A DNA stretch of 28,561 nucleotides from a virus. Positions within the stretch are counted from its first letter, which is position 1, and each line of letters opens with the position of its first letter. Below the pieces are notes generated by a model that made no database searches, was not told where the DNA came from, and saw only the letters and a list, made by a program, of their open reading frames with translations. The stretch spans positions 1 to 28,561 of the IMG/VR virus record IMGVR_UViG_3300042114_000039; one strand, given 5' to 3'. Shown one piece after another: positions 2,352-28,561 of the stretch. The translations under genes and the position numbers were made by a program.

Positions 2352-2386
2352 GGTGCTAATATTGCTTCGCATTAGTTCTATCCTTT

Positions 2387-2427: not shown

Positions 2428-2576
2428 TGCCACTTTGCTGTGTTTGCGCTGGTCAGGGTCTCTGCGACGCGGACTCTCACCGCCTCGCCAGCACGGTTTT
2501 TATAATGCGACACAAGGCGTGGGTCAATGAAAAAATGTAATAAAAACATCATATAAATTTAGTGATTAATGCCATA

Positions 2577-13474: not shown

Positions 13475-14308
13475 CTAATCGAAATCAACTGCGGCATCTG
13501 CAAATTCGTACATGACGCGCACAATTGCATCCGCAGTCAATCCAGTTCCGAAGGTGATGCCGTTTGCGTCTGCGGTGTAATCGGTGGTATAGGTTTTCAG
13601 AACGCCGTCAACGGTTACAGTAATTGAACCGCTGCCTGTCACGAACGGCAATTCAGTATCAAAATCAAACGCGGTCTGCGCTGATGTTGCGACCCACGCG
13701 GCGAATGTCAGGCGGTGGTTGCTCTGATATTCGATGTACTCGGCGGTAGTGAATCCGTCAGTGCCTGCGATAAATGCTAGTCCAGTTGGATGCGTCTTGC
13801 ATATCTGCGGCTGTACGGTGTAGACATGACTGGACTGCTCGCGTGATTTACCTTTTGAGCCTGGAATAATTGTTGCCTGCGGGAATACATACGTTGAGAC
13901 AATTGCGCTCCCGCCGTTGTCTTTTCCGCGATTATACGCAACCAACATGACGTTAGGCTCGCTGCCCTGTTGGTTAGTTGCCCATCCGATTGAGTTCACG
14001 TCCCCAAACTGACGCACTTTGGTATTCGATAATAACGCGATTGTTGCTGCGTCCGTGCGGGACACATCCATTGTGCCGTTGGCGGCTTCAATGCTCGGCA
14101 GACTGGTTCGCTGTCGCACGCCGTTGTTGCCGGGGTGCGCGATTGATTCAGGGGCGGGGATTTCATACGCAAACGAAACGGGACCGCCAACTTTGATACC
14201 AGAATTAACGCCGCTAGATGATGTGATTAATCCAGTGGATTGGTTGAGTTCGTAAATACGGACGGCGTCTAAGCCCGCAACATAAATTTTTTGTGTAGGT
14301 GCTGCCAT
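13475..14308 (-). CDS. Major tail (tube) protein
   Basis: The 277-residue protein is encoded just before the chaperone pair, where the tube protein is expected. It is beta-rich with few charged clusters. The last 80 residues (from TSAQTAFDFDTELPF, then SGSITVTVDGVLKTY) form an apparent extra beta domain that could decorate the tail surface. An ideal AGGAG precedes the ATG by eight bases, consistent with high expression. The call rests on order, length and composition. Confidence 0.65.
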   Translation of the reverse strand: MAAPTQKIYVAGLDAVRIYELNQSTGLITSSSGVNSGIKVGGPVSFAYEIPAPESIAHPGNNGVRQRTSLPSIEAANGTMDVSRTDAATIALLSNTKVRQFGDVNSIGWATNQQGSEPNVMLVAYNRGKDNGGSAIVSTYVFPQATIIPGSKGKSREQSSHVYTVQPQICKTHPTGLAFIAGTDGFTTAEYIEYQSNHRLTFAAWVATSAQTAFDFDTELPFVTGSGSITVTVDGVLKTYTTDYTADANGITFGTGLTADAIVRVMYEFADAAVDFD

Positions 14309-14787: not shown

Positions 14788-15569
14788 AACACACTCACGT
14801 ACGGCAAAATCAGCGCGTCAACATCGGCGGGAATAACGGACGGCATAATAACCGTTCCGTCAATAGACACAATCGGCGAGGTTGTCCCTGTCTGCTGCGT
14901 GTCTTTTTGGCGATACATCCATGCGGCGAGACGGCGACAGGCGGTAATAATGTCGGTGGGTGTTGACAGTAGCGCAGCGGTGGTGTCTGTGTCGTCGGCG
15001 GCTGCCTGCGCCCACGTTACCGCCGCGCCTGTGTTGGATAAAACCGTAAACGCGCCGTTGAATGAGGTGTCAGCGCACCCAACAATTAACACGGTGGCAC
15101 CGACTTCAGATTGCGCATCAATGACTGCGGCGGTCACGACATTGGATACGCGAGTCAATGCGGTAACGTCTGCCCGCACCATATACGCCCAAATACCAGA
15201 AACAGAAATCGCATTCTGCATATTGGTTTCATAAGTCCATGAATAGTTGGAGGAGGTTTTCAAACCAATTTTGTAATACGGTGTCGAGTTGCGCGGCGTG
15301 CTGTAAATGTCGGCAGTCACGTCAACGCCGTCACCGTTAATAACGCTGGCAATATACGAAATATCGGTATCAAACCACAACTCACTGCGTAGAAAATCCT
15401 CGCCAATGTCAAAATGCCGCTGGCGATTGGCTGATGAATAAAACACGCGCCCGCAACGGCTGTTAATGCGGCTGGTTGCAGCGTCTAGCATTTTCTGCAA
15501 TAGCGAATCATCCGTTGCGGCGGTAATGTTCAGATATGTTTTTAGGTCGGTCAGTGCGCAATACGACAT
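14784..15569 (-). CDS. Head-tail connector with inserted beta domain
   Basis: The 261-residue protein starts like gp6-type connectors (HK97 family): ALTDLKTYLNITAATDDSLL, then KMLDAATSRINSRCGRVF. Helices of the same fold return near the end (DIITACRRLAAWMYRQKD). Between them, at about residues 130-205, lies a beta-rich insertion (VSNVVTAAVIDAQSEVGATV and VLIVGCADTSFNGAFTVLSN) not found in ordinary 100-residue connectors. It may be a decoration domain on the neck. It closes the portal exit and links it to the tail. It begins 60 bases after the capsid gene, beyond a strong hairpin. Confidence 0.7.
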   Translation of the reverse strand: MSYCALTDLKTYLNITAATDDSLLQKMLDAATSRINSRCGRVFYSSANRQRHFDIGEDFLRSELWFDTDISYIASVINGDGVDVTADIYSTPRNSTPYYKIGLKTSSNYSWTYETNMQNAISVSGIWAYMVRADVTALTRVSNVVTAAVIDAQSEVGATVLIVGCADTSFNGAFTVLSNTGAAVTWAQAAADDTDTTAALLSTPTDIITACRRLAAWMYRQKDTQQTGTTSPIVSIDGTVIMPSVIPADVDALILPYVSVL

Positions 15570-15581
15570 CAGTACTCCATT

Positions 15582-15622
15582 GCGCGGCGGGCGTAACGTA
15601 ATTCACGCCAAACCCGCCGCGC
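15582..15622 (-). other. Strong hairpin after the capsid gene
   Basis: On the minus strand GCGCGGCGGG pairs with CCCGCCGCGC across a 21-base loop that can itself pair (GGCGT with ACGCC). It lies between the capsid stop and the connector start. Without a T tract it is more likely an mRNA 3'-end protector or partial attenuator for the highly expressed capsid message. Confidence 0.5.
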
Positions 15623-15628
15623 TGTTGG

Positions 15629-16735
15629 TTAAGCGTGTGTGTTCAGGTAATAAAACGCCTCAGACTGCAAAACGTTGAACCCTCGGAAAATGGTAGCGAA
15701 AATCCCGATTTGCCCGCTTGCCATGTACAGGTAGGGGTTTCGTTGCACAACCATTCCAGGACGTTCAATCAAGCCAAAATAATTGAAATTGCCGAAAATG
15801 ATGGGTTTCTTTGTGGCGGCGATTGCATCCATGTCATCAGAGATATACACGGGCTGATTGAACAATCCATCAAACGCATAATAATTTGTTCCGAAAACGC
15901 CTTTCAAATACCACTCGGTCGCGTTTTTCATAATCCAGCCGACCTCGCCCGGAACGTTGTACCCGTTGGAGAGTTTGCCTGCAACGCTGGCTAATTCCGG
16001 GATGGTAACGGCGGTTGCGGACGCGGTGGTAATGCCCGATGAGGTTGCGCCTGCCATAAGCACGGCGGTTGCCAGCGTATTTTCGGTGACTGCCTCAGCG
16101 CGCGCCAATGCACCAATAAGCCACTGGTCAAAATTGGTTGCCTCGTAATTCACAAATTCTTCGGAGGCTTTTAGCAATTTCGTATATTTGGTCAGCGTCA
16201 TGTCCACCTGTGCAACGGTCGGCTCGTTTTCGTTATACGCGGCGGCTTCGCTGGTGGCAACAAACGCGGTTAGGCTGGTGTCTTCAGTAGGCACAAGTAA
16301 ATGATTAGCGGCGGTACTAAACCGTTGAACGGGAGCGCGGCGCACCCATGAGGCAAGATTGCGTTTTTCGCTGATTTGCGCGTAAAGCGGGTCAGGGACT
16401 AAATACAAACCTGTACCGCCCACGCCGATAGCCATAGCCGCCTTCATGCTATCGGTCGGTTCGATGAGGTCGCTGTTTTTCTCGCCCGATTGCATCCAAT
16501 GGCGGAACGATTTTACCTGCGCCTCTTCCGGGCTGTCGGTGGGTGAAGTGATTTTGTGGAAAGATGGGGCTTTGTTGCCGATTTCCTTCACGGCGGCTTG
16601 GTAGCCCTCGTCCTTTGCCGCTTTGATTTCCGCAAGGCGGGCGGCTTCGGCTTTCTGTTCGGCGTCACGCTGGGCAAGCGCGGTTTTTACTGCATCCTCG
16701 GCAACGCTTTTGACATCTACAATAGGTTCGCTCAT
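15629..16735 (-). CDS. Internal start: major capsid protein without protease
   Basis: Within the protease-capsid frame, ATG at 16735 begins MSEPIVDVKSV and is preceded by GGAG with nine bases (AATAATAAA) between. It is in the same frame, so it would give a 368-residue capsid precursor (delta region plus HK97 fold). This solves the stoichiometry problem of a fusion: few proteases and many capsid subunits. Nested in-frame starts in head genes are known from lambda C/Nu3. Use of this start is inferred from the ribosome site only. Confidence 0.65.
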   Translation of the reverse strand: MSEPIVDVKSVAEDAVKTALAQRDAEQKAEAARLAEIKAAKDEGYQAAVKEIGNKAPSFHKITSPTDSPEEAQVKSFRHWMQSGEKNSDLIEPTDSMKAAMAIGVGGTGLYLVPDPLYAQISEKRNLASWVRRAPVQRFSTAANHLLVPTEDTSLTAFVATSEAAAYNENEPTVAQVDMTLTKYTKLLKASEEFVNYEATNFDQWLIGALARAEAVTENTLATAVLMAGATSSGITTASATAVTIPELASVAGKLSNGYNVPGEVGWIMKNATEWYLKGVFGTNYYAFDGLFNQPVYISDDMDAIAATKKPIIFGNFNYFGLIERPGMVVQRNPYLYMASGQIGIFATIFRGFNVLQSEAFYYLNTHA

Positions 16736-17227
16736 TTTATTATTCTCCAATGGTTCAAAAATTGATTTGATTGTTTGTACCGTGTTTCGGTACTCTGCAG
16801 GCGTGGGCGTTAACGAGACCTCGCCAATGACCCACGTTTTGATGTGGAACGCCTTACCCGCTGGCTCGCGCTCAACTAGATGGGACAGCGCGCCGCTGGA
16901 GTAACCCAACTTTCCAGCCTCAGCCATTTCGTAAATGCGCCGCTCGTACTCATCGCGCATGTTCAACTGTGTTTCTGCCCAAATATCGAAGTTGTCCATA
17001 CGTGACAATTTCGATGTGCCAATGACCCGTTTTTTTAGTTCCACGTCCTTCCCGTGATTGTAGTAAACGTCAAGTGTGTCTTGGAAACGCACATCAGATT
17101 TCGCGCTGAAAAAATCTTTGGCCAGATCGGGTGTATTCTGGTCGGTCATACGGACAAGAACGCCGCCGACTTTGCCATTACCTAATGCCTTCAATTCACC
17201 GCCAAATAAAATTACATCGTCCTCCAT
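15629..17227 (-). CDS. Prohead protease-major capsid protein fusion (HK97 type)
   Basis: The 532-residue protein joins two normally separate head proteins. Residues 1 to about 155 are a U35-type prohead protease with the likely catalytic His58 (YYNHG) and Ser110 or 111 (LGYSSGA), and WVIGEVSLTPTPAEYRN. Residues 165 to about 240 are a charged coiled-coil delta/scaffold region, and about 255-532 are an HK97-fold capsid subunit (GVGGTGLYLVPDPLYAQI, final VLQSEAFYY). The start at 17227 follows GGAG by five bases; the extra 17 codons upstream lie in a terminator-like hairpin. An internal ATG at 16735 has its own ribosome site. The protease presumably cuts itself and the delta region during maturation. 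Confidence 0.85.
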   Translation of the reverse strand: MEDDVILFGGELKALGNGKVGGVLVRMTDQNTPDLAKDFFSAKSDVRFQDTLDVYYNHGKDVELKKRVIGTSKLSRMDNFDIWAETQLNMRDEYERRIYEMAEAGKLGYSSGALSHLVEREPAGKAFHIKTWVIGEVSLTPTPAEYRNTVQTIKSIFEPLENNKMSEPIVDVKSVAEDAVKTALAQRDAEQKAEAARLAEIKAAKDEGYQAAVKEIGNKAPSFHKITSPTDSPEEAQVKSFRHWMQSGEKNSDLIEPTDSMKAAMAIGVGGTGLYLVPDPLYAQISEKRNLASWVRRAPVQRFSTAANHLLVPTEDTSLTAFVATSEAAAYNENEPTVAQVDMTLTKYTKLLKASEEFVNYEATNFDQWLIGALARAEAVTENTLATAVLMAGATSSGITTASATAVTIPELASVAGKLSNGYNVPGEVGWIMKNATEWYLKGVFGTNYYAFDGLFNQPVYISDDMDAIAATKKPIIFGNFNYFGLIERPGMVVQRNPYLYMASGQIGIFATIFRGFNVLQSEAFYYLNTHA

Positions 17228-17244
17228 TTTTCTCCTCTGCAAAT

Positions 17245-17283
17245 AAAAAAAGGCACGCAATACCATTGCTGGTATCACGCGCC
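17245..17283 (-). terminator. Terminator-like hairpin in the capsid leader
   Basis: On the minus strand GGCGCGTGATACC pairs with GGTATTGCGTGCC (13 pairs, three of them G-U) around a six-base loop and is followed by seven T. It ends only 17 bases before the protease-capsid ATG, so it would attenuate transcription into that gene unless overridden. It may also end transcripts coming from the neck genes. Confidence 0.7.
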
Positions 17284-17350
17284 TTTCGGTCTTTGCGTTT
17301 TTCCCTATCGCTCCAGCCGTTCGGCTCTATGGCGAGGTAGGTGATTAATT
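17284..17350 (-). other. Structured RNA leader of the capsid gene
   Basis: Transcription from the promoter at 17357-17384 would produce this leader before the terminator-like stem. On the minus strand CCTA, TCGC and AGCCG pair in order with CGGCT, GCGA and TAGG, forming one long interrupted hairpin (inner stem 17315-17326). A purine-rich linker containing ACGCAAAG follows, then the attenuator stem. Hairpin, linker and terminator before a ribosome site is a typical layout for cis-regulation. No known riboswitch class is matched in full. Confidence 0.4.
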
Positions 17351-17356
17351 TACGTC

Positions 17357-17384
17357 ATTATACACCATTCTTTCTACTTGTCTA
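17357..17384 (-). promoter_or_regulatory. Promoter of the protease-capsid gene
   Basis: On the minus strand TAGACA (5 of 6 to the -35 consensus) is followed after 16 bases by a perfect TATAAT, with a TG one base further upstream. The sequence TGTATAATGACG is shared exactly with the promoter at 23102-23113. It overlaps the end of the neck gene and gives the capsid gene independent expression. Confidence 0.65.
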
Positions 17385-17820
17385 ATTCTTCTAGTGCGAT
17401 TTTCTCTAGGCGAGGCAAATAGTCGTCTACTATTTCATCCGTTGTCTGCCAACCGTGACGTTCTGCCCAATATACCCGCTGGGTTGCGTCCATCAAATGC
17501 GGCGCGTATGTTGCCTCAGTAAACACAGACGCGGTTTCACCCTGCGCCTCTATCCGCCAACTTTTCTGCAATTGTTGGGACGTATTTCTACCGCCCAGTG
17601 TGTCGTTTTTGCGTTTCCATCTCGCGCCGTATAAACGTTGATACCAGTGATTATCCCCGCGTGTGCCGGGTGCTGAATTCCACGCGCCCGCTTCAGGGTA
17701 CACCGCCGCTCTGTCGTGTAATTCAGCGGCGGCACGAATGATAATTTTGCGCCGCGTTTCGGGGCTGATGATACCGTCAATGATTTTTTGGAGTTGTTCG
17801 GTAACTGGAAGTTTCGTCAT
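17374..17820 (-). CDS. Neck / virion morphogenesis protein (gp10-like)
   Basis: The 148-residue protein has the pattern of small phage virion-morphogenesis or HK97 gp10-like proteins: N-terminal helices (TRRKIIIRAAAELHDRAAVY), a basic middle (YQRLYGARWKRKND), the strand-rich SWRIEAQGETASVFTEATYA, then YAPHLMDATQRV and a helical C-terminus. Such proteins act at the head-tail joint or as minor head components. The start overlaps the MuF gene stop (ATGA). The position before the protease and capsid genes is slightly unusual, as gp10 relatives normally follow the capsid. Confidence 0.6.
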   Translation of the reverse strand: MTKLPVTEQLQKIIDGIISPETRRKIIIRAAAELHDRAAVYPEAGAWNSAPGTRGDNHWYQRLYGARWKRKNDTLGGRNTSQQLQKSWRIEAQGETASVFTEATYAPHLMDATQRVYWAERHGWQTTDEIVDDYLPRLEKIALEELDK

Positions 17821-18566
17821 CGCCTCACCAATTCAACAACCGTTTTACATCGGCAATTTGGGTGTGCGGGTGGGCGTTCAATTAGCCCAAATTTTGTCAG
17901 CCATCCGCCATCTTTTTTTAGTTTGTGGTCAAGCGGGGCGCATATTGGGCACACTTTTTCGTCCTCGCTGGTCTGCCATCTAATTTGCGATTCAACGCCC
18001 TGCTCTGATAACCGCGATTGCAGCGCGTCGCTAAAATATCCCTCTGCCCTCGTCAATTCGGTGACGGCGATTTGCTCGGCGTGTCCACTGCTAAACCGTA
18101 TCGCCATGCGCTCTATAATCTCGTCATATGAAACGCCCTGTCCCAACAACGCCTCAAACTGGCGGCGGCTGTTATCTGCTACGCCGCGCGCAACTTCATC
18201 AAACGCCTGCGTCATTGCGGTATCAATGTCAGAGACCGCGCCCGCTTTGTCAATAAATTCGACATAATCCGAATAGTTACTGAACGATTGTTCAATGTGC
18301 TGCCTTAGCGGGCGTGCAATCTGGTGGCGCAATTCACGCTCATAATCATCCCAAAAACCATAGGGAAGCGCGCCACCGCCGCCATTCTCCATGATGTTTA
18401 GATATTTGCGTTCCAACGCCAATATCAGGCGGGCGAGTTTGCGCTCTAACTGCTCACGGTCAATCGGAGCGGCTTTATAAACGTACCTCAGCCGCGCTTC
18501 AAGCGACAGGTTATCTGCCACTGCCGGGAATTTTTGCAGAACATCAAGAATATAATTATCCAGCAT
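17817..18566 (-). CDS. MuF-type phage head morphogenesis protein
   Basis: The 249-residue protein ends in the diagnostic MuF/SPP1 gp7-like motif: TSEDEKVCPICAPLDHK followed by RPPAHPNCRCKTVVEL, with Cys-x-x-Cys and Cys-x-Cys pairs likely to bind metal or form the fold core. The N-terminal 130 residues are helical. A few copies are packaged in the head, bound near the portal, in known phages. It follows the portal gene directly and overlaps its last codons. The ATG at 18566 with AAGG upstream is preferred over a TTG at 18581. Confidence 0.85.
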   Translation of the reverse strand: MLDNYILDVLQKFPAVADNLSLEARLRYVYKAAPIDREQLERKLARLILALERKYLNIMENGGGGALPYGFWDDYERELRHQIARPLRQHIEQSFSNYSDYVEFIDKAGAVSDIDTAMTQAFDEVARGVADNSRRQFEALLGQGVSYDEIIERMAIRFSSGHAEQIAVTELTRAEGYFSDALQSRLSEQGVESQIRWQTSEDEKVCPICAPLDHKLKKDGGWLTKFGLIERPPAHPNCRCKTVVELVRR

Positions 18567-19992
18567 GTGCAGCCTTCTCAATCGCCGCCGCCAGCGTCAA
18601 CAATGGCAATTCAGCAGCCGCGCCGTCAAAGACCGCCTGAATTTCATCCGCCGTTTTCGCGGCGCGCAGACCCGCATTAATACGCAGTGCCATCGCGGGC
18701 GGGATGTGTTTCGTCTCAAAATCGCGTTTGCGTGGGCGTTCGGCGAATGCGCGCCATTTTATCATTTCAATGGCTATGGCATTTTCCTCATCGGTGGGTA
18801 GCGCCATCGGCAAGGGCTGTTCCATTACGGGAGCGGGCGTGGCGGGCGGCTTTGGCTCGTCTGATTTTAGCGCGATAATGGCGGCGGTCTGGTTATCGGT
18901 CAGGTCGTAACCGAGAATATCCATCGCCACCAATGCCGCGTCTGGTTCGGATGTGAACACACTCGACAAAGTAGCCACGCTGCCGCTTTTGTCTGATTCC
19001 TCCCGTTGGAATGCGTCAAGTGACTGAAAATCAAAACGCGCCTCAAACCCCAGAGGCTTCCATATTTGTTCGTTGAAACTGTCCTCAATCGCCTGATAAA
19101 TTGATACGAACACTCCACTAGTTAACCAGATATAAACCAGTGCGTCCATCTCTGTGGCGAATGCGTTATCCGACATGAATATGCCTGACGGGATACCAAA
19201 TGCCGCCGCAATGGTTTCGATTTGTTGGCGGGTGATTTCAATATAAGATCCCTTCAATTCATCCATGCCTGCACCGACTGGCTGCGGGACAAGACTCTTG
19301 GCATTGACGATTTTTACGACCCGCTTCCACGTTCCGCGCATAAATTCAGACAGAATATTCTCAGCGCGTCTGCGTTCTTCTGTCTGAATACCCTCGGCAA
19401 CCGCGAACATCGGTTTTATAAATCCGTTTTCGCCATACGTTCTGATTGTCGCGTCCATTGCGCCGATAATGCCCGCTGGCAACACCGCGTTTGCAATCGG
19501 CGTAATTTGCGCCGCGCCGACCTCAACGGTGTCATCAGGTAGCCAAATATGCAGCATTTCCTCGACAGGAACTATCTCGCGGTGTACCCCGTATTGCCTC
19601 GTGAAATTGACAAGTACGCCGTTATTGTCAAAATTAGGTGTAATTGTTTTTGGCGCGTAATATTGCAAACTCACCAACGCTCGGTCTATGCGCGCAATCC
19701 GCGCGTATGCCGCCCCACCGCATAACGACATTGCCATTTTTAGCATGAGCGTTTGTGGGGATTTCACTCCGCCCCATCGCGGTTCTGTTTCGTTGCCGCC
19801 TCTGTAAAAAGCGTATGGTATTTGCGCGGTCATATTGCCCGTCATCAAAACCGCCTTGTTCAACCACGTTACCGCTCTGCGTAGGTTGTCGGCATTGGTG
19901 GCGTTGCCCGCGCTGGCGGCTAAAAATCCTTCAAGCCCGCCCCAGGGAGAGAAGTCTATCGCTTTGATTGAAACATTTTTCACGATTTGCAT
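18556..19992 (-). CDS. Portal protein (HK97 family)
   Basis: The 478-residue protein is a phage portal. N-terminal wing strands with QIPYAFYRGG lead to the stem and crown region (EMLHIWLPDDTVEVGAAQIT, IGAMDATIRTYGENGFIKP). A conserved IAAAFGIPSGIFM lies near residue 270, and the characteristic SIYQAIEDSFNEQIWKPLGF follows in the clip region. The last 100 residues are helical and Pro/Ala-rich. Twelve copies form the DNA entry ring. The start at 19992 is chosen for the GAGGTG site seven bases after the terminase stop; the longer frame reads back into terminase. Confidence 0.85.
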   Translation of the reverse strand: MQIVKNVSIKAIDFSPWGGLEGFLAASAGNATNADNLRRAVTWLNKAVLMTGNMTAQIPYAFYRGGNETEPRWGGVKSPQTLMLKMAMSLCGGAAYARIARIDRALVSLQYYAPKTITPNFDNNGVLVNFTRQYGVHREIVPVEEMLHIWLPDDTVEVGAAQITPIANAVLPAGIIGAMDATIRTYGENGFIKPMFAVAEGIQTEERRRAENILSEFMRGTWKRVVKIVNAKSLVPQPVGAGMDELKGSYIEITRQQIETIAAAFGIPSGIFMSDNAFATEMDALVYIWLTSGVFVSIYQAIEDSFNEQIWKPLGFEARFDFQSLDAFQREESDKSGSVATLSSVFTSEPDAALVAMDILGYDLTDNQTAAIIALKSDEPKPPATPAPVMEQPLPMALPTDEENAIAIEMIKWRAFAERPRKRDFETKHIPPAMALRINAGLRAAKTADEIQAVFDGAAAELPLLTLAAAIEKAAHAG

Positions 19993-19999
19993 TTTCACC

Positions 20000-21202
20000 T
20001 CAACTAACGTACCAATGTTCACGCGCGCCACTGAGCGCGATAGCCAATGCCATAACGGTATCATCGTGTAAACCGTCAGGGCTGCTGTATCGAATTAAAC
20101 CGCTGGGCAGTTTCACAGAGCGGAACGCGGTCAATTCGTTTATCTGCAATTCATCATCCAATAACTCAATGTCGCGGCGCTCAAACGCCAATTCCAGCGA
20201 ATGTACAATATTCGCCTTTGTTGCGTTGATGGTGTTGAATGGCGAGACGTAGAGTCCCGCATCCTGTAACGCCTCGATATTCGGCAGACCCATATTGTTA
20301 CTTTCTGCAATAATCCGTGCGTCATTGTACCGCTGCGCTAATGCCGTTAACCGCCCGCGCTGACTAGCGTAATCGGTGTTGGTCATGCGGTCGAGAAAAA
20401 CCTGCCGCCGCGCAACTACGTCAATCACGCAAAATACGGTCGCATCGTTAGACCTGCCCCAATCCACGCCAATTACATATTGACCTCCCGTTCGTGGCTC
20501 TTGCGGCTGCAATATTGACGCGGCACGCACGCCACGAAACACGCCACCGCCATCCGCCAAAAATTGCGCCATTATCTCCTGTTGGTAAACGCGCTCTGGC
20601 ATAAGCGTTTTTAGGCTCTCCAGTTCGGACGCTGGCAAATGCGGGTTGCTGTAACTCGACATCTGCCAGCGCGCCCATTCATCGCTGGTCTGGCTGAATA
20701 GCGCAGAAAACCCGTTCATTCCGTTCGGCGTTCCTGCGTACCATTCCACGCCGTGATAATCAATTAGAGTTGGCATAATGACGTTGTTACGGATACGCAA
20801 TAAATCAGACACAAATCCAGCCTCATTTACGAAAAACGCATGGTATTTTTTGCCACGTATACCGTTCGCTGTTTTTGGATTGTCCAGTGAGTAGAATTCA
20901 ATTCTGCCACCCGTCACGGTTTCCAGCCGCATTTCGCTGTACGAACTGCGCGACAAAACAGGCGAAAGAATGTTCTCCAATTCTCTGTAATCGTCTAGCG
21001 TCTGTTTGTACACAGGCGCGCCCCAACCAACATAACGACCGTATGAGGATTCTTCAGCCGCAAGCCCCTGCAAAAACACATTTTTACCCCATCGCCGCCC
21101 GCAACAAAGTGAATTGTGACGCTTGCGCTCCCGATATACCCTCGCCTGCGCCTTATGGCGTCTCGGTAGGCGTATTTTCGCTATCACTTCCATCTGTGCC
21201 AT
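20000..21202 (-). CDS. terL: Terminase large subunit
   Basis: The 400-residue protein has both motor and nuclease parts. The ATPase has a Walker A-like CCGRRWGKN at 33-41 and Walker B FFVNEAGF at 123-130. The RNase H-like nuclease has Asp247 in IGVDWGRSND, Glu300 in IIAESNNMG, and Asp380/381 in HDDTVMALAIAL. It pumps DNA into the prohead and cuts it. GGAG stands seven bases before the ATG at 21202; an ATG nine bases later is also possible. It overlaps the small-subunit candidate by 50 bases. The protein is at the short end for the family but no core motif is missing. Confidence 0.92.
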   Translation of the reverse strand: MAQMEVIAKIRLPRRHKAQARVYRERKRHNSLCCGRRWGKNVFLQGLAAEESSYGRYVGWGAPVYKQTLDDYRELENILSPVLSRSSYSEMRLETVTGGRIEFYSLDNPKTANGIRGKKYHAFFVNEAGFVSDLLRIRNNVIMPTLIDYHGVEWYAGTPNGMNGFSALFSQTSDEWARWQMSSYSNPHLPASELESLKTLMPERVYQQEIMAQFLADGGGVFRGVRAASILQPQEPRTGGQYVIGVDWGRSNDATVFCVIDVVARRQVFLDRMTNTDYASQRGRLTALAQRYNDARIIAESNNMGLPNIEALQDAGLYVSPFNTINATKANIVHSLELAFERRDIELLDDELQINELTAFRSVKLPSGLIRYSSPDGLHDDTVMALAIALSGAREHWYVS

Positions 21203-21539
21203 CTGTCCACTCCACGACAATTTTTGTGATTGGCTTACCATCGCTAGTAACGTCAACGTGTTCCTGTAGTATTTTCGGGTCGAGAACCTGCAATGCCAGT
21301 TTGTTATGCGCGGGGTTGCGCGACGTGAAAAGTTGACGGAGCATTGCGTCAAGCCGCGTCATCTCTGTTTCGTCCTTCCCTATCAATTCGGCTGCAATTC
21401 GGCGCATGTGTTTTCGCATGAGCAGCACATCCTTCGGCACGCCTTTTATATTGCGGCGAGGGTCAAAACCCTTTTTAAACGCCACGCCATTGTTTTTTTT
21501 TGGCAGTGATTCGGCAGTATTTTGTGCGTCTTCGGTCAT
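21153..21539 (-). CDS. Terminase small subunit candidate
   Basis: The 128-residue protein lies directly upstream of the large terminase and overlaps it by 50 bases. The segment FKKGFDPRRNIKGVPKD resembles the Gly/Pro/Arg motif of short phage proteins found in this position, and the middle is helical (LLMRKHMRRIAAELIGKDE). The C-terminus is acidic and Thr-rich, probably disordered. A DNA-recognising small terminase fits position and size, but no helix-turn-helix is evident, so this is inference. The start overlaps the methyltransferase stop (ATGA). Confidence 0.55.
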   Translation of the reverse strand: MTEDAQNTAESLPKKNNGVAFKKGFDPRRNIKGVPKDVLLMRKHMRRIAAELIGKDETEMTRLDAMLRQLFTSRNPAHNKLALQVLDPKILQEHVDVTSDGKPITKIVVEWTDGTDGSDSENTPTETP

Positions 21540-22564
21540 TTTATCGCCTTGTCTAATATCTCAGTGCGCACATGATTGGCTATACTCCTCATAAACAACG
21601 GGGGAACGCTGTTGCCAATGCGATTTTTTGAATTCTTGCGTCCACCAATAAAAATAAAACCATCAGGGAAAGACGCCATGCGCGCCAATTCTCTTTCAGA
21701 AAAAGAACGGCATTCGGTTGGGTGGTATGCGCCTCCGTTGCCTTCTCCTTTTTGCAATGTTTTACATGGTAAATTTTCAGACATTCGCCTGTTTTGATTC
21801 AACTTTCCAACAACTCCACCTTGCCCCGCTTTGTACCAGTATTCTTTGTAAAGCGGAGTAAGTTCAATGTCATGTAAATCTTTTTTAGAAAATAAAACTT
21901 TTCCAATTGCTTCTTTCACCGTCACTGGCACACTCTCCGCCTCTGGGTGGCTCGGTTCAATTCCTAAATCTTCGCGCACGCCGACAAATATCATCCTCTG
22001 CCGTGACTGCGGAACATTGAAGTACATCGCGTTCAAAAGTTTTGCAGACACCTTATACCCGCTTGCTTTCAACTCACGCAATATTTCAACAAATACCAGT
22101 TTCATAACGCCTTTCACCATACCTGACACATTTTCCATGACAAAAACTTTCGGCTTTAGTCCGCGCAATAAGCGGACATACTCGCGGAATAACTGATTAC
22201 GCGGGTCGTCAAGTTGTCGCTTGCCTGCTGTGCTAAAACCCTGACAAGGTGGCGACCCGTCAAGGACATCCAACTCGCCTACATCCAAACCCGTCACCTG
22301 CAAAACTTCATCAACTGATAATTCAGCAATATCCCCATGATAAACAGGTACGTCAGGAAAGTTTAGTTTGAATGTTTCAACCGCGTTATTATCCCATTCA
22401 ACAGCCAGCAATTCACGAAAGCCTGCCATTGAATAACCAAGTGACGAACCGCCTGCGCCAGCAAAAGTACTGATAACCTTCGGGGCGTTGTTTGCTTTTG
22501 GTCGTAAATGTTCCTGCCAGCAAACGTCTAAAAGTGGAATGTAATCAATTTTTCTTAGCGGCAT
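21536..22564 (-). CDS. C5-cytosine DNA methyltransferase
   Basis: The 342-residue enzyme carries the ordered motifs of the Dcm/M.HhaI family: FAGAGGSS (SAM binding, 34-41), GSPPCQGFS with catalytic Cys107, MENV near 143-146, QSRQR near 181, RELARMASFPDGF and GNSVPP near the C-terminus. It transfers methyl groups from SAM to cytosine in duplex DNA. No restriction gene is adjacent, so it is probably an orphan enzyme protecting phage DNA. The target segment (about 215-265) is short. The ATG at 22564 lies inside the ParB-like gene end; a TTG at 22600 is an alternative. It is transcribed with the terminase genes. Confidence 0.92.
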   Translation of the reverse strand: MPLRKIDYIPLLDVCWQEHLRPKANNAPKVISTFAGAGGSSLGYSMAGFRELLAVEWDNNAVETFKLNFPDVPVYHGDIAELSVDEVLQVTGLDVGELDVLDGSPPCQGFSTAGKRQLDDPRNQLFREYVRLLRGLKPKVFVMENVSGMVKGVMKLVFVEILRELKASGYKVSAKLLNAMYFNVPQSRQRMIFVGVREDLGIEPSHPEAESVPVTVKEAIGKVLFSKKDLHDIELTPLYKEYWYKAGQGGVVGKLNQNRRMSENLPCKTLQKGEGNGGAYHPTECRSFSERELARMASFPDGFIFIGGRKNSKNRIGNSVPPLFMRSIANHVRTEILDKAIK

Positions 22565-23099
22565 GTTCGTGTCCACAAGTAGCGCATTTACAAACTTCAA
22601 TACCGTCTGCTATGTCCTCGCCGTACTCTTTGAACTCTGGCACTTTTTTTATCCCCATCCCCTCGACAATATCCGCCAGCATTTTATCTTCTGCCTTCAA
22701 CGCCTGCATAGCAGGGTCAGCCATGACCGCCGCGAGGATGTCAATTTCGGGATTGTACGAAATTCTACCAATTTCGTTGTCTTCCAGCCCCAGAGCATAA
22801 AACTCTGGTGAGCCGGGCGCAATGTCATCACGCACCACGTTAACAATTTGGTTGCCTGTCGTGTGTACGTTGATTATTTCCATCCCCAGCGTGGCGGCGA
22901 TTTCCAGCGTCTGATTTCCGCCCATCACAACGGGAACGTCTGCGCCTTTGCCAGCCGAGAAAATAGAACGCCCCGCGCCCCGTTTCCGCATGGAGTTTTC
23001 ATGCAGTCCACGACCGCGCTGTGTATGTTTGTTTACATTGTTAGGGTCAGGCGTTGCGCCCTGTTCAATTGGAAGTATTTCAATTTTAGGGGTGTCCAT
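22545..23099 (-). CDS. ParB/Srx-fold phage protein with zinc ribbon
   Basis: The 184-residue protein has the ParB N-terminal-like fold found in many phage genomes: NVNKHTQRGRGLHENSM at 21-37, GAGRSIF at 41-47, VVMGGNQTLEIAATLGM at 57-73 and DDIAPGSPEFYALGLEDNEI. The C-terminus has a Cys/His cluster (CKCATCGHEH at 170-179) suited to zinc. Phage members occur next to methyltransferases and terminases and may act in DNA binding, cutting or nucleotide-dependent switching. It is the first gene of the late run. The ATG at 23099 is six bases after a TATAAT, so the mRNA may be leaderless. Confidence 0.75.
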   Translation of the reverse strand: MDTPKIEILPIEQGATPDPNNVNKHTQRGRGLHENSMRKRGAGRSIFSAGKGADVPVVMGGNQTLEIAATLGMEIINVHTTGNQIVNVVRDDIAPGSPEFYALGLEDNEIGRISYNPEIDILAAVMADPAMQALKAEDKMLADIVEGMGIKKVPEFKEYGEDIADGIEVCKCATCGHEHAAKKN

Positions 23100-23105
23100 G
23101 CCGTC

Positions 23106-23111
23106 ATTATA
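23106..23111 (-). promoter_or_regulatory. TATAAT box directly before the ParB-like gene
   Basis: The minus strand reads TGTATAATGACG and then GC before the ATG. A start about seven bases downstream of TATAAT would fall at or next to the ATG, giving a leaderless message. No good -35 is present. The 12-base block is identical to the capsid promoter at 17353-17364, which strengthens it. Confidence 0.5.
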
Positions 23112-23144
23112 CAACAAAAGCCCCTGCCTATTGTGACAGGGGCT
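23111..23144 (-). terminator. Intrinsic terminator before the ParB-like gene
   Basis: On the minus strand AGCCCCTG and CAGGGGCT form an eight-pair stem with a ten-base loop, followed by TTTGTTGT. It ends transcripts from the acidic-protein gene just before the new promoter. Confidence 0.75.
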
Positions 23145-23178
23145 TGCGTAGCCCTAGATTTTTTATTATTTATAAATC

Positions 23179-23285
23179 GCCCCCGCCTATGGCGTGAAGC
23201 CATATCGGGGGCGCGCTGGTCTGCGCCAGCGTTCGGTGTGTCATCAGCACACCACCAAACAGGAGAACCTGATTATATCAGGTTC
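23179..23285 (-). other. Cluster of four consecutive hairpins
   Basis: Four stems stand in a row: GAACCTGAT/ATCAGGTTC (23265-23285, overlapping the upstream stop codon), GGTGTG/CACACC (23235-23253), CGCTGG/CCAGCG (23214-23231), and GCCCCCG/CGGGGGC with an inner TATGGC/GCCATA stem (23179-23212). With the terminator at 23111-23144 nearly all of this gene-free stretch can fold. It could be a structured 3' untranslated region or a small noncoding RNA. Which strand matters cannot be decided by sequence alone. Confidence 0.55.
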
Positions 23286-23578
23286 CCCCAGAACGCACCG
23301 TCACTGTATATGACGGTTTCGATGTTGCGAACTACCTCCGCAATGTTTTCGCTATCTATGGTGTCCGTCTCGTCATCGATAAAGACGGTGACATCCGCCG
23401 AGTAAAAATATCCCCACTCATGGCTGATTTCAGCCTGTGGGTAAATTTTCAGAATTTCAACATTGACAGCCTGCTCGTAAGCAGACTCCGCTTCGTCTTG
23501 ATCGCGGTTCTCGTCCGCCCCGTAGAACCCGTCAAAGTCATGTTCAATTTCAATTTCAATTTTTGTATTTGTATTCAT
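23273..23578 (-). CDS. Strongly acidic small protein, own promoter
   Basis: The 101-residue product contains 25 Asp/Glu but only 4 Lys/Arg. It begins with alternating IEIEIE, has a helical Glu-rich segment, then strands (EWGYFYSADVTVFIDDE) and ends in WGNLI. No family is recognised. Acidic, compact phage proteins include DNA mimics and inhibitors of nucleic-acid-binding complexes; that role here is speculation prompted by its place right after the type IV-like operon. It has a near-consensus promoter, an inverted-repeat operator candidate, a repeat-containing leader and an AAGGAG ribosome site. Confidence 0.7.
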   Translation of the reverse strand: MNTNTKIEIEIEHDFDGFYGADENRDQDEAESAYEQAVNVEILKIYPQAEISHEWGYFYSADVTVFIDDETDTIDSENIAEVVRNIETVIYSDGAFWGNLI

Positions 23579-23593
23579 TTTATTTCTCCTTTT

Positions 23594-23626
23594 GTTTGAT
23601 TGATGTTTGATTGGTTTGTTTGATTG
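23594..23626 (-). repeat. Three direct repeats CAATCAAAC in a leader
   Basis: CAATCAAAC occurs three times (plus-strand 23594-23602, 23605-23613, 23618-23626), spaced by two and four bases, between the promoter and the ribosome site of the acidic protein gene. The stretch lacks G on the coding strand and would be unstructured RNA, so it could be a binding site for a translational regulator. Confidence 0.6.
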
Positions 23627-23634
23627 ATAGAAAT

Positions 23635-23669
23635 ATTTTACCCCTTACGCCGCGTTTTGTCAAGGGGTA
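23635..23669 (-). promoter_or_regulatory. Near-consensus promoter with operator-like inverted repeat
   Basis: On the minus strand a perfect TTGACA (23663-23658) and TAAAAT (23640-23635) are separated by exactly 17 bases. TACCCCTT and AAGGGGTA (23639-23646 and 23662-23669) form an inverted repeat that overlaps both boxes, as an operator would. The TGA stop of the Csf3-like gene overlaps the -35 box. The repeat could instead act as a weak rightward terminator, but no rightward gene needs one. Confidence 0.75.
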
Positions 23670-24394
23670 ATTTTTACAGAACCCCCGGCACGCCACCCCA
23701 GAGAAAATATATCAGGTTTCCACTGTGGACACGCCCACCCGACCAGAGACGCGGGGTCATCAAATTGCAGCCCTAATTCGACCTCTGCGCCTTGCGGGAT
23801 TGCGTGCGTGAGTTTTTCATTTTGCACGATGGTTTGAATATCGTCCCCACTCCACGCGGACACATCCCATTCTGCAATCTCACCGTAACCGATATTACGA
23901 TGTTTTCCCAGCAGACGGATGAGCGGCAACAACTGCATAATCTCATCAGCATTGCCGACACAAAAAGCCTGCCATTGTTTTGATTCGCTTTGCAGGGCTG
24001 GTTTCGGAACGCGACGATCCATCCACCGACCCACATTGGATTTAGGTTGTTTGTCGCTAAATTCAAAACGCCCTAATCGTTTATGCAAATAAACCGTATC
24101 CCTAAAAACTTTTCCAATAGGCAGAAACACGGAAGCCGCCCACAACGGAAAATCTTCCGCCGATGTCCACAATCGTTTGAGCGGAACAGGCAATTCATAC
24201 GACAAAGATTTTTCCATCTCAAATGTATTTACTCTGGCATGTTCGATAACCGCCCGCGCCAGCAAATTATCGAGATAAACAGGGTCGTACATAATGAGAC
24301 CCTGTTTCAATGTTACCGTGATGACCAGCGGTTGAAATTCCATCGCCGCGTATCGGTCTGAATAGGGTTGAAGCGCTAAAAGTTTTGTAATCAC
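23660..24394 (-). CDS. csf3: Csf3-like Cas5 subunit (type IV RAMP)
   Basis: The 244-residue protein looks like a type IV Cas5/Csf3. Its N-terminal ferredoxin-like strand (FQPLVITVTLKQGLIM, 20-35) is followed by YDPVYLDNLLARAV, and the Gly-rich RAMP loop LGKHRNIGYGEIAEWDV lies at 162-178. ASVFLPIGKVFRD and KRLGRFEFSDK complete the pattern. Csf3 caps the 5' end of the guide-bound effector. It starts with GTG at 24394, overlapping the glycosyltransferase stop, behind an AGGAG six bases away. Its TGA overlaps the -35 box of the next promoter. The assignment is from motif pattern plus the neighbouring Csf1/Csf2/CysH genes. Confidence 0.65.
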   Translation of the reverse strand: MITKLLALQPYSDRYAAMEFQPLVITVTLKQGLIMYDPVYLDNLLARAVIEHARVNTFEMEKSLSYELPVPLKRLWTSAEDFPLWAASVFLPIGKVFRDTVYLHKRLGRFEFSDKQPKSNVGRWMDRRVPKPALQSESKQWQAFCVGNADEIMQLLPLIRLLGKHRNIGYGEIAEWDVSAWSGDDIQTIVQNEKLTHAIPQGAEVELGLQFDDPASLVGWACPQWKPDIFSLGWRAGGSVKITP

Positions 24395-25065
24395 ATTTTT
24401 CTCCTGTTCTCATTATGGAGTTTGGTTAGTTCTAACAAAGGTTTTATGTTTTTTATATTTTCAATTCCGCCTTTACTAATACATGGTTCGCCAGTCACAA
24501 AATATTTACCTGGCACACATGGGTAAAACGCATCCGCGCCAAATGATTTAAGAACTTCAAACATTCCTCCGCTTCTTGTATCAACATCATGGTATCCATA
24601 AGAAAAAGTTGAACGGTAATTATTAAAACCAGATTTATAGACGTTAGCAGAGAACATCACATCGTCCAAATAATCTTTGGGATAACCGCCCACAAAATCC
24701 CATGTAGATTTCTTAAACAATAATCCAGCTCCTATCCAGCAAAGTTTTACGGGTTTCAATTCTCGTTTTTCGGTTTTTTTCATGCCGCGCATTATACGGG
24801 TCGTTTGAATACATCCCCAATTCCCAGAGGCAAGCGATAGCGTTTGAGACAAATTAATTTCTTCCGTGAAATAACAATCATCGTCAATACTAAAAACAAT
24901 ATCATCGTCAGCGCACTGAGCGACCCCGATATTTCTGGCATTGGCTGTTGGTCGTTCATTTCGCACAACAACAATTTTGTCATGTTCAACAAAATTCAGC
25001 GTTGACAAACATCTGTCTAATAAATCTTCTCTATTCCATGTTGGAATAACAATTGTTATTTTCAT
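24391..25065 (-). CDS. GT2-family glycosyltransferase inside the effector operon
   Basis: The 224-residue enzyme has a GT-A fold: KITIVIPTWNREDLLDRCL at the N-terminus (nucleotide-sugar binding), ANARNIGVA at 41-49, a metal-binding IDDDCYF at 60-66, GAGLLFKKSTWDFVGGYP at 112-129, and an acidic DYLDDVMFSANVYKSGF segment at 131-147 with the likely catalytic Asp. His159 may help bind metal. It is soluble; no membrane segment is seen. It overlaps both cysH (ATGA) and csf3 (GTGA). It could modify a nucleic acid or protein linked to the effector, or be an unrelated phage gene caught in the operon. The sugar donor is unknown. Its DNA looks AT-rich beside csf2. Confidence 0.8.
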   Translation of the reverse strand: MKITIVIPTWNREDLLDRCLSTLNFVEHDKIVVVRNERPTANARNIGVAQCADDDIVFSIDDDCYFTEEINLSQTLSLASGNWGCIQTTRIMRGMKKTEKRELKPVKLCWIGAGLLFKKSTWDFVGGYPKDYLDDVMFSANVYKSGFNNYRSTFSYGYHDVDTRSGGMFEVLKSFGADAFYPCVPGKYFVTGEPCISKGGIENIKNIKPLLELTKLHNENRRKM

Positions 25066-25796
25066 GTGTAATTACTCGCATCAGGAAATCGTTGAAGTAA
25101 AACAGAAAACAAATCAGGGTAATTGATTCTAAGCCACGCCCATCGTCCATACCGCCGCGCGGTCTCACCTGCCCAATATGAAATTCGTTGCCATTCACGC
25201 GGCAGTTCCCACATTTTGTCGTATGTTTTGCAATAATCAATTCCATTGCTAAAAATATACGCCCAAACATCATCATACGACCAATCTGCTATCGGCTGAC
25301 ACGTGTAAGCACCATAACCATTGTGATAATAAACCGCTCCATGAACTTTGAAATTCATAAACCGCCCCCTGTTTTCGTCTGCCCGCAAGCCAACAACCTG
25401 ACCGTCATATCCCATAGAAACTAATTGTTTTACAGGATATGTAACAGTAGTCCGCATGGTTTCATTTTCTAATTCACGTCCGCCATGCACACCGCCCATG
25501 CGCTCCAACGTATCTAAGAAATCTTCCTGCGCTGGAAACTTCTCAGCGTTCGGAGTATTTTCTAATAATTGGTACGCCTCTGGGAACGCACAATTTGCGT
25601 CAATGTATATTGCTTTACAATTCGGGATAATTTTTCTTGTCAAATGCAATGCGACAGTAGAATCTTTTCCCATTGAAAAAGCAATATATGGATTTTTTGT
25701 TAATCGTGAAAATTCAATAATGCGCGAGAGTGCATTGTCCACTCGACGTTTATATCGAGTGGACAATGCGTGCGCCATAAATGACGCCCTATTCAT
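25062..25796 (-). CDS. cysH: CysH-like PP-loop enzyme (PAPS reductase family)
   Basis: The 244-residue protein belongs to the adenine-nucleotide alpha-hydrolase family. Its PP-loop is AFSMGKDS at 39-46. It also has VVGLRADENRGR at 134-145 and CQPIADWSYDDVWAYI at 166-181, both typical of PAPS reductase relatives. The C-terminal catalytic Cys motif (ECGxH) of true reductases is missing, so it probably activates a substrate with ATP rather than reducing PAPS; this also describes the CysH of type IV-B loci and DndC-like enzymes. The ATG at 25796 overlaps the csf2 stop (TAATG) behind AGGTG. Many phages carry stand-alone relatives, so the CRISPR link rests on the neighbours. Confidence 0.85.
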   Translation of the reverse strand: MNRASFMAHALSTRYKRRVDNALSRIIEFSRLTKNPYIAFSMGKDSTVALHLTRKIIPNCKAIYIDANCAFPEAYQLLENTPNAEKFPAQEDFLDTLERMGGVHGGRELENETMRTTVTYPVKQLVSMGYDGQVVGLRADENRGRFMNFKVHGAVYYHNGYGAYTCQPIADWSYDDVWAYIFSNGIDYCKTYDKMWELPREWQRISYWAGETARRYGRWAWLRINYPDLFSVLLQRFPDASNYT

Positions 25797-27184
25797 TATG
25801 TACACACCTGCGCAGTAGTTCCCATTTTCCCGCTGGCAATTCCCTCAACCAGTGCGTCATGGTTCGCCGTCAGATATTCGTTGTACGGTTGTGTATCGGC
25901 TTTCACGCCGTTCATCCAATCAGCATTGCACCAACCAAAACCACGCGCCGATTGTCCCGCGATAGTCGGCTGTTCGCGGAACTGCTCCACTGCCGCAAAT
26001 AATGCCGATTTCGTCAGTTCAGTTGTAAACGGATGTAGGTTCATCCGCACCATGATATTGAGTCCTTTCGTCAGCGTCTCAAAATTCCAAATCATCTGAC
26101 CGAGACCGCTCTCCGTAGCCTGACGTGTGTGGGTAACGTCATCTAACATATCGAAAATGCTCACACTCGCCAGTGGTAGATTTTCGGCAGATGTGCCTTT
26201 CAATGCGTCGGCATTCTCGCGGCACACCACCCAGCCAGCCAAAGACAAACGGCTCTCGCCTAAATCGAACGAATCGCCCACGCCGCCGAGCAGGTCTAGT
26301 AGTGGATACGTTTCGCGCATGGTCAACGCCAACTGAGCCGCATTGGATGGTTGTTTTGCGCCTGCGCGTATATTACCGCCATTGACAAATAACGCCTCCA
26401 CGCCTGCGGGAACTTTAGACAACCCCAACGATTTCACCAAATGCACCCATCCAGATTCGCGCACAATCTGATGACGTAAACTATTCGCGGTCACTGCGGG
26501 GACATCTAGCGGGAGAAACTCATGCGATTCGCCACCAACCAGAGCCGCGTCAAAATTCATCGTGACGAGTTGCTGAACTTCGGCATTGAGTTTCGCCGCG
26601 TACCAGTCATTCGTAAGTTTTCCAGTGGTATGCCATGCCCGCGCCAGCATTACCACTGAGCGATATTCGCGCACCATCAGCGAGAGAATGTCTTGTTGTA
26701 ATCCGCGCGGCAGTGCGTAGAATGCCAATAGGCTGGAATCATTATCCCCGCCGTGAACAGGTAAGCGCAAATCGTGACACAGTTTTGACCAGAACCCGCG
26801 CAACGAAAATGAACGCGTCGCCGCTGACCGAATGCGAGATTCAAGTTTTTCGTATCTATCCATACCTGAGAACACGCCCACGCCATCGCGTGAGTTATAA
26901 ATATCCAATAGCAAACGAATCAATGCACCTGCCGAAAATTCGGTGAATGAGGATTGCTCGAAAATTGGCTGGAGTTCAATCGGTACTGGATTGGATTTAC
27001 AAAATACCTCCACGCGTTCCTGCGACAGTTGATAGGCGGCGACATCGCGCTGGACAATCTGTGTTTGACGGTTGAAAGTTAACGTATTTGAGCCGTCGCC
27101 CGTTGCGGGGTCGTGGTGGCTCACCTGTGTTGTGAATCTCAGCAACAAATCAAAAGAGTTCTGGTTGTTCGGTTTGATTTTCAT
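25796..27184 (-). CDS. csf2: Csf2-like Cas7 backbone protein, enlarged
   Basis: The 462-residue protein resembles type IV Cas7 (Csf2), which polymerises along the guide RNA. A first RAMP strand FDLLLRFTTQVSHHD (11-25) is followed by a helical region (about 70-215), then the family core DVPAVTANSLRHQIVRESGW (227-246), VEALFVNGGNIRAGA (262-276), the segment DLLGGVGDSFDLGESRLSLA (297-316), and a late strand with NIMVRMNLHPFTTE (376-389) and Gly-rich AGQSARGFGW (409-418). As far as I recall, Csf2 proteins are nearer 340 residues; the helical insertion makes this one longer. The ATG at 27184 lies inside csf1 behind AGGA; the 51 codons further upstream are csf1 in another frame. Confidence 0.7.
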   Translation of the reverse strand: MKIKPNNQNSFDLLLRFTTQVSHHDPATGDGSNTLTFNRQTQIVQRDVAAYQLSQERVEVFCKSNPVPIELQPIFEQSSFTEFSAGALIRLLLDIYNSRDGVGVFSGMDRYEKLESRIRSAATRSFSLRGFWSKLCHDLRLPVHGGDNDSSLLAFYALPRGLQQDILSLMVREYRSVVMLARAWHTTGKLTNDWYAAKLNAEVQQLVTMNFDAALVGGESHEFLPLDVPAVTANSLRHQIVRESGWVHLVKSLGLSKVPAGVEALFVNGGNIRAGAKQPSNAAQLALTMRETYPLLDLLGGVGDSFDLGESRLSLAGWVVCRENADALKGTSAENLPLASVSIFDMLDDVTHTRQATESGLGQMIWNFETLTKGLNIMVRMNLHPFTTELTKSALFAAVEQFREQPTIAGQSARGFGWCNADWMNGVKADTQPYNEYLTANHDALVEGIASGKMGTTAQVCT

Positions 27185-28085
27185 TTTCGATTTCCTTTTT
27201 TTGAGATATGAGTACCGCCATCGCAAATTCTGTTTTCTCACGAAGCGGTTTGAGTTGGTTATCCAAATCAATGACCTGGCGTATTCCAAGCAACTGCACC
27301 CGCGACCATTCACGGAGCAGTGAGTAACGAATACCATTTTTAGAAAAACCCATCGAATAGATATTCTCTACAACGTCCAGTATTTCTAATAGCACAGCCC
27401 AATCAATAACCTGCACCGATGACAGCCCGTTATCAGACACATCGTAAATCATAACTGGTGTCGCGCTTCCCAACACTCCTATTCTGGCTTTATGCCAGAC
27501 ACGTTTTTTCACATCAGTTGTAAGAATCATCAAAACAGGTTCGCCACGTTTTGTAATCCACAACTGACGAACCAAATCAGACCAACAAGGGCGCGCCCCT
27601 GTTTTATCTCGCGCAATCAACGGGTGATAATGCGTGCCATCAGAAAAGATAATGCGCGAACCTAAATTCCACGTCCCTTTGATAGCCCTCGCCGCCGAGT
27701 CTGACACATAACCATTCGTTCCATTCGGCAATAAATCTAAATACTCACCCGCCGTATTTGGGACAACATCCCAAATTGGATACCCATGCGTGATGCGCAA
27801 CCCAGTAATCGCGCAATTTGCAGTAACTGGTTTCGGCGGCACATCCAATGGTGGAATTTTCAATCCGCTGACCAAATATTCTGTAACTGTCATAAGACTC
27901 CTCTCAGGTGATAAAAACGCTGGAAACAATTTCCAGCCATCACTATACAACAAAAACCCTTTTTGTTCCATCTCGTAAATTTTTCGATGAACATCAAAAC
28001 GGCGCAAACCCAATTGACGCGCAATTTGCGCTTGTGTTTGTCCTGGATTTTTTACGAGATGGAACCACACACGAGAAAGATTCAT
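27150..28085 (-). CDS. csf1: Csf1-like protein with N-terminal winged helix
   Basis: The 311-residue protein has a winged helix-turn-helix at 1-55 (TQAQIARQLGLRRFDVHRKI, then a wing before LLYSDGWKLFP). A core resembling type IV Csf1 follows: PVTANCAITGLRITHGYPIW (86-105), YLDLLPNGTNGYVSDSAARA (115-134), PCWSDLVRQLW (166-176), VLMILTTDVKKRVW (184-197) and WAVLLEILDVVENIYSMGF (229-247). Csf1 is the type IV large-subunit equivalent and usually has a four-Cys zinc site; here only Cys91 and Cys167 are obvious, so the site is probably lost. The start follows the upstream stop by one base (TAGgATG). The winged helix could autoregulate the operon or bind DNA targets. Assignment leans on gene context. 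Confidence 0.55.
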   Translation of the reverse strand: MNLSRVWFHLVKNPGQTQAQIARQLGLRRFDVHRKIYEMEQKGFLLYSDGWKLFPAFLSPERSLMTVTEYLVSGLKIPPLDVPPKPVTANCAITGLRITHGYPIWDVVPNTAGEYLDLLPNGTNGYVSDSAARAIKGTWNLGSRIIFSDGTHYHPLIARDKTGARPCWSDLVRQLWITKRGEPVLMILTTDVKKRVWHKARIGVLGSATPVMIYDVSDNGLSSVQVIDWAVLLEILDVVENIYSMGFSKNGIRYSLLREWSRVQLLGIRQVIDLDNQLKPLREKTEFAMAVLISQKKEIENENQTEQPELF

Positions 28086-28086
28086 C

Positions 28087-28470: not shown

Positions 28471-28561
28471 AATATTCTCCTTATTACTTAGAGTTTGCGC
28501 CAGTGGTTGGCGTATAAAGTCCACAGCGGACATAACGCCCTCGCACCCCAAACATTTAGGA

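Follow-up and report, generated by a model that had tools for sequence, protein, structure and literature searches.

In late promoters of the lambda type, pR' is followed by a short leader RNA, by the terminator tR' and by the late genes, and read-through is given by the protein Q. The Q binding element lies between the -35 and -10 elements, and a -10-like pause element occupies the first transcribed bases, as described in PMC6606751. Another arrangement is found in phage HK022, where a promoter is followed by an RNA of about 70 nt with two stems (putL or putR) and then by terminators; put antitermination needs no dedicated protein (PMC9378689). A third one is that of bacterial riboswitches and protein-binding attenuators, in which a conserved upstream domain precedes a linker able to pair with the 5' arm of a terminator, the terminator itself and the gene.

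The leader analysed here resembles each of these systems in part. It lies at 17384-17225 on the minus strand of the window, i.e., the whole 28,561-base virus record IMGVR_UViG_3300042114_000039, and is flanked by two genes on the same strand: one without family match in profile scans (17820-17374) and one encoding a fused head-maturation protease and HK97-type major capsid protein (15629-17227; PF05065, 5e-25; TIGR01554, 4e-38). As in a Q-type late promoter, a promoter, a short leader and an intrinsic terminator precede late (here capsid) genes; unlike in the lambda type, the leader has a covarying RNA hairpin and sits mid-operon, directly before the capsid gene. As with putL and putR, a structured RNA of similar size comes just after a phage promoter and before a terminator, but put precedes early genes. 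The bacterial attenuators share with it a conserved upstream RNA domain ahead of an intrinsic terminator and a linker able to pair with the terminator 5' arm, whereas here no known aptamer is found, the gene encodes a phage capsid and the antiterminator is unproven. Judging from sequence comparison, the leader belongs to an RNA family of five members, absent from Rfam, which is set in a widely kept layout of capsid leaders. We think that the stretch is probably a cis-acting transcription attenuator or antitermination leader of the capsid operon.

A first-pass annotation of this DNA had described a good promoter, a long interrupted hairpin, a purine-rich linker with ACGCAAAG and a stem whose seven T stop 17 bases short of the capsid start codon, and we recovered all of these on the minus strand. 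The promoter is of the sigma-70 type, TAGACA-16-TATAAT (17384-17357, with the -35 at 17384-17379 and the -10 at 17362-17357), has 11 of 12 matches and carries GTG directly before TATAAT. The interrupted hairpin spans 17341-17304 and the linker, AAACGCAAAG, spans 17300-17291, with ACGCAAAG at 17298-17291. Fold prediction and a terminator search place the intrinsic terminator at 17287-17245, as an 18-pair hairpin (17287-17248) with seven T (17251-17245). The start codon of the capsid gene is the ATG at 17227-17225. Its open frame extends upstream, reaching a GTG at 17278 within the terminator; the ATG, preceded by a Shine-Dalgarno-like GAGGAG (17237-17232), is the likely start.

The promoter ranks best among ten promoter-like sites in 15000-20000, where shuffled sequences lead one to expect 5.3, and within 190 bases upstream of the terminator the top promoter score is 11, versus 7.5 in 100 shuffles (p 0.01). 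Across 22 leaders of related capsid genes, the mean score before the terminator is 9.4 versus 7.1 when shuffled (Wilcoxon p 4e-5, a rough value since the leaders are related). Taken singly, 10 of the 22 promoters beat their own shuffles at p <= 0.05, and those of L009, L093, L133, L138 and L139 have p > 0.6. When the window promoter was aligned with the 21 others, anchoring on -10 hexamers picked by eye, a TRTG-like element was common to them (T in 17, G in 17 and T in 18 of 22, in adjoining columns) and the predicted start base was an A in 17. At this predicted first base, exactly six bases after the -10, eight of the 22 leaders have the motif AAYYRAAT; two further leaders have it shifted 3 or 8 bases downstream. 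In the window, where the 5' end of the RNA is predicted to lie in AAATTAATC (17351-17343), and in L091, the sequence comes close to the strict motif without matching it. A search for a -10 plus AAYYRAAT on both strands of 25 sources (217 kb) returned six matches, all of them capsid leaders, and skipped L006 and L136, whose -10s deviate from the pattern. The RNA 5' end may thus itself be recognised, independently of the remaining leader sequence. By eye, no conserved direct repeat was seen between -35 and -10 in the 22-promoter alignment, and AAYYRAAT has no obvious likeness to a -10-like hexamer. No antitermination protein, including the Q family, was recognised among 28 ORFs of the window scanned with Pfam, many of which have no match in a record that is possibly a fragment, and scans with PHROGs and NCBIfam gave no Q-family protein.

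The leader (110 nt) folds at -42.2 kcal/mol, compared with -23.9 +/- 3.1 for 200 shuffles, none of which was as good (z -5.9). Its interrupted hairpin is composed of P1a (CCU/AGG, 17341-17339 with 17306-17304), P1b (UCGC/GCGA, 17335-17332 with 17311-17308), an internal loop (CAUAG/GGA, 17331-17327 and 17314-17312), P2 (AGCC/GGCU, 17326-17323 with 17318-17315) and the loop GAAC (17322-17319). We searched viral contigs for relatives of the capsid protein. The locus L006, with a capsid protein 57% identical to that of the window, has the same leader type: P1b is changed from UCGC/GCGA to UUGC/GCAA and P2 from AGCC/GGCU to GUGC/GCAC, and the CAUAG and GAAC loops are unchanged. Further versions of the hairpin were found in L091 and L139. 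A covariance model (R2) built from the window, L006 and L139 and run over 43 sources (313 kb) recovered L091 (E 8.5e-13) and L008/L086 (E 1.2e-5), each directly before a capsid gene. The next-ranked matches were L087 (E 0.2) and the capsid leader of L093 (E 1.7); with E 1.7 and 1.5, the latter is a weak candidate for membership and was left out of the five. In a separate search of 26 records the model matched four, once each and always before the capsid gene, and missed the L008 record.

The covariance modelling with homologous leaders that the annotation had proposed thus finds the hairpin kept by compensatory change in five phages, two of which were brought in by the model. In the five-member alignment, which was fitted to the structure, 54 of 55 cells are paired, 9 of the 11 pairs are changed on both sides, and covariation is 1.04 against 0.29 +/- 0.09 when shuffled (none of 500 as high; slid controls at most 0.14). 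Because of this fitting, we added a count on a structure-naive alignment of three sequences: 97% of the cells are paired, 6 of 11 pairs are doubly changed, and the covariation is reached by none of 500 shuffles. The sides of the internal loop measure 5 and 3 nt in all five members. On the evidence of these substitutions, the fold of the upstream hairpin is under selection. The family is present in only 5 of the 22 distinct leaders. Rfam gave no match at the gathering threshold in the window and 20 related loci, and five sub-threshold matches in 17200-17400. Of the earlier description of the arrangement as riboswitch- or antiterminator-like, the antiterminator or attenuator part is therefore borne out by the covariation of the hairpin and by the kept layout, whereas a small-molecule aptamer is left without support because no Rfam family matches. 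Readings of the leader as GEMM-like, hammerhead or pRNA-like were considered and dropped. Attenuation by a leader peptide was also rejected, the leaders of the window, L006, L091, L139 and L008 having no conserved short ORF: their ATG frames have 2 codons in the window (by eye), encode MSLIKYPTLP in L006, are lacking before the terminator in L091, and have 1 and 8 codons in L139 and 36 in L008.

Taken together, terminator-like sites are no more frequent in 15000-20000 than expected by chance (6 against 7.2), but the one in the capsid leader has 18 pairs and the next such site has 7. We scored the layout in the related loci with a scripted search for a hairpin-T terminator, with four T in a row and five T of eight among the requirements, followed by a start codon preceded by a Shine-Dalgarno sequence. 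The nearer group consists of 29 loci with at least 35% identity to the query that found them, amounting to 22 distinct leaders after merging L096 with L095, L130 and L141 with L125, and L127, L128, L129 and L131 with L126. Excluded from the count were L004, L005, L094, L102, L103, L104, L117, L119, L132, L134 and L143, because their capsid start lacks upstream DNA or their match is only partial, and L007, L089, L092 and L124, which are duplicate records. In 28 of the 29 nearer loci and 21 of the 22 distinct leaders, the start codon follows a strong terminator (dG -16.7 to -41.9) at a distance of 16-38 nt. The exception, L098, has the hairpin without a run of four T. Conservation of both stems, on which the annotation had made its reading depend, is thus seen in different forms: the upstream hairpin covaries in the five phages and the strong terminator is kept in nearly all nearer loci. 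Several of these have an ORF that reaches beyond the capsid match, as if it were extended at the N-terminus. In the distant group (16 loci, 28-34% identity, separated from the nearer one by a boundary set after the result was known), 13 loci lack such a terminator; L105 has one inside a coding sequence, and L110 and L111 have a weaker one (-14.5) ahead of a 585-codon ORF.

A stricter terminator test on ORFs called mechanically on both strands gave 17 of 22 capsid ORFs versus 0 of 184 others, with one row relabelled as capsid (before relabelling, 16 of 21 versus 1 of 185, the one being the capsid frame of L083, which equals L002). L087 is not among these ORFs; at 13781-13818 it has a strong non-capsid hairpin (-28.3, four T only) together with a promoter score of 9 and a gene start. 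Such a hairpin close to the Shine-Dalgarno sequence, seen in nearly all nearer loci, could in principle serve for protection and not for attenuation, stabilising an abundant capsid mRNA that would benefit from it, or blocking decay from upstream, with an incidental T-run. We regard this as very improbable, because the run of four T and the five T of eight recur in 21 of the 22 distinct leaders despite differing stems, and because promoter scores are elevated upstream of the hairpin.

The layout of promoter, leader, terminator and capsid gene persists in nearer relatives whose leader sequence is unrelated. L090, for instance, has a capsid protein 62% identical to that of the window, yet another leader type. 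Inspection by eye suggests a second type in L009, L136, L138, L125, L090 and others, in which a CUAG[AC]CUUUG-like stretch comes right before a CCGG-based terminator; the CUUUGCG of L009 is the reverse complement of CGCAAAG in the window leader. Some loci have additional units. L125 and L127 lie on one contig of 80,305 bases with two related capsid genes, each with its own leader and terminator. In L002, the capsid unit is immediately preceded by a second promoter-leader-terminator unit (about 2185-2290), which stands ahead of a 43-codon ORF resembling, by eye, a homing endonuclease remnant.

A promoter, a compact fold and a strong terminator are also the typical features of small RNA genes, and the linker, predicted to be unpaired in the full-length fold and highly conserved between the window and L006, would suit an RNA of about 100 nt acting in trans from a free-standing gene, with the capsid mRNA arising by read-through from the upstream operon. 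We find such a gene unlikely, since the distance of the terminator to the next start codon is kept within the above range (the capsid ORF, or, in L133 and L142, a small ORF that is the first gene after the terminator and precedes the capsid gene), since the family model matches once per record where it matches, always before the capsid gene, and since the layout is constant while the leader sequences differ between relatives. Both the location next to the capsid start codon and the fact that close relatives differ in leader type argue for an action in cis.

The linker may take part in a switch. As long as the terminator 3' arm is not yet transcribed, the nascent RNA is predicted to fold into a hairpin (17298-17277, minus) of the form ACGC (17298-17295)-AAAGA-CC-GAAA-GG-C-GCGU (17280-17277), which occupies the 5' arm of the terminator and so would exclude it. 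A hairpin with these elements, i.e., ACGC, a bulge, CC, GC or GCC, a four-base loop and GCGU, is predicted for L006, L091 and L139 as well as for the window. L093 has a similar one and L008 also has a predicted hairpin of this kind, which makes six leaders. By eye, two of its pairs show compensatory change. These candidate antiterminators have -5 to -9.5 kcal/mol versus -19 to -34 for the terminators, which outcompete them in the predicted fold of the complete leaders. Their energies are not better than those of shuffled linkers (p 0.18-0.71 with dinucleotides preserved, combined 0.34; p 0.09-0.30 with mononucleotides). Because of these failed controls, we rejected the antiterminator as a proven switch and infer it instead; in the predicted folds, the competing hairpin is a plausible but unproven antiterminator.

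Searches beyond the capsid relatives returned few leaders of this type. DNA patterns around ACGCAAAG gave 0, 13 (one being the L008 record) and 17 (one being the L006 record) stretches in IMG/VR; the remaining ones were judged by eye, on their context, not to be this leader, and L013 and L027 have ACGCAA ahead of an ordinary hairpin with T. In GTDB genomes, the pattern matched 42 stretches, 22 of which are one stretch in Nostoc-group genomes, and by eye none of the 42 is followed by such a hairpin. A hairpin pattern search gave six stretches: two true leaders (L006 and L091) and four with no terminator after them (by eye). A blastn search for the leader in phage records returned none. Of 400 genomes of Chloroflexota, the sole phylum searched, 9 contain relatives of the capsid protein, at 12 loci, none of which matches the family RNA model. 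A strong terminator just before the capsid relative is present in one of them, L149, where TTGACA-18-TAAGAT (by eye) is followed by a leader, a hairpin of -35.3 kcal/mol with six T and, shortly after, an ATG. The other 11 have no such terminator close by, with the orientation of L147, L150 and L151 uncertain because both strands of the match are open. Hairpins lie 500-1000 bases upstream in L144, L145, L146 and L151, and L149 has two more.

The conserved loops of the hairpin suit an RNA that binds polymerase or a protein, and the order of elements is that of HK022 (PMC9378689). The leader alone could then bind RNA polymerase in the manner of put and override this and later terminators of the structural operon with no protein partner. 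We hold this to be improbable: the family model R2, run with filters off on HK022 20000-40751, had no significant match (best E 0.71), and the second stem drawn here overlaps the terminator. Among the matches listed in the open-licence literature on terminators, leaders and structured RNAs at capsid genes, and on Q and put, nothing describes this arrangement.

The window has other features of note. A type IV-like CRISPR effector set is encoded in this phage at 23660-27337 (minus), with Cas5/Csf3 (23660-24394; PADLOC E 3.6e-24), a Cas7/Csf2 protein that includes a Cas11-like part (25796-27337; E 7e-21 and 2.3e-8), a CysH-like PAPS reductase (25062-25805) and, between these genes, a glycosyltransferase; no CRISPR repeat array was seen in 21000-28561 or 1-2800. 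In the ORF at 5350-6162 (plus), the N-terminal part of an RNA ligase is joined to a C-terminal N6/N4 DNA methylase part. A 311-aa phage protein has a weak MarR-like match. By eye, two more promoter-like sites each precede a hairpin with a T-rich tail, one in the divergent region at 2340-2431 (plus) and one at 23290-23110 (minus), the latter with ACGCAAGCCCC at the stem and before a ParB-like gene.

The order of promoter, RNA, terminator and gene implies that transcripts would end early by default and that the capsid gene would be reached by read-through, in line with Q at the lambda late promoter, with put RNA and with many attenuators, and the covariation argues for a signal borne by the RNA. 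From the computed anatomy, covariation and position-specific conservation of the leader, we infer a working promoter and terminator and a regulated read-through with an agent that brings it about. RNA polymerase would start just past the promoter (17384-17357) and make a leader of about 100 nt, transcription would mostly end at the terminator, which leaves 17 bases to the capsid gene, and capsid mRNA from this promoter would require conditional read-through. The hairpin and the ACGCAAAG linker would target RNA polymerase during elongation or recruit a factor of the phage or the host, and may keep the terminator 5' arm paired in the alternative hairpin. More speculatively, and with low confidence, the leaders could be phage RNAs of a new class, which would license read-through into the capsid operon by acting in cis on the polymerase, either unaided or together with a single host factor, with divergent versions across a clade of uncultured phages and the shared 5' end AAYYRAAU as common recognition element.

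The leader thus probably decides the amount of shell protein made. A terminated leader kept at the capsid gene in many related phages, with a fold maintained by compensatory change, points to a regulated read-through that times or doses the shell protein. At about 110 nt the RNA is short enough to be tested, and covarying variants of it occur naturally. It would be a phage regulatory RNA family not covered by Rfam, and may be an antiterminator, protein-free or with a host factor, from beyond the lambdoid phages.
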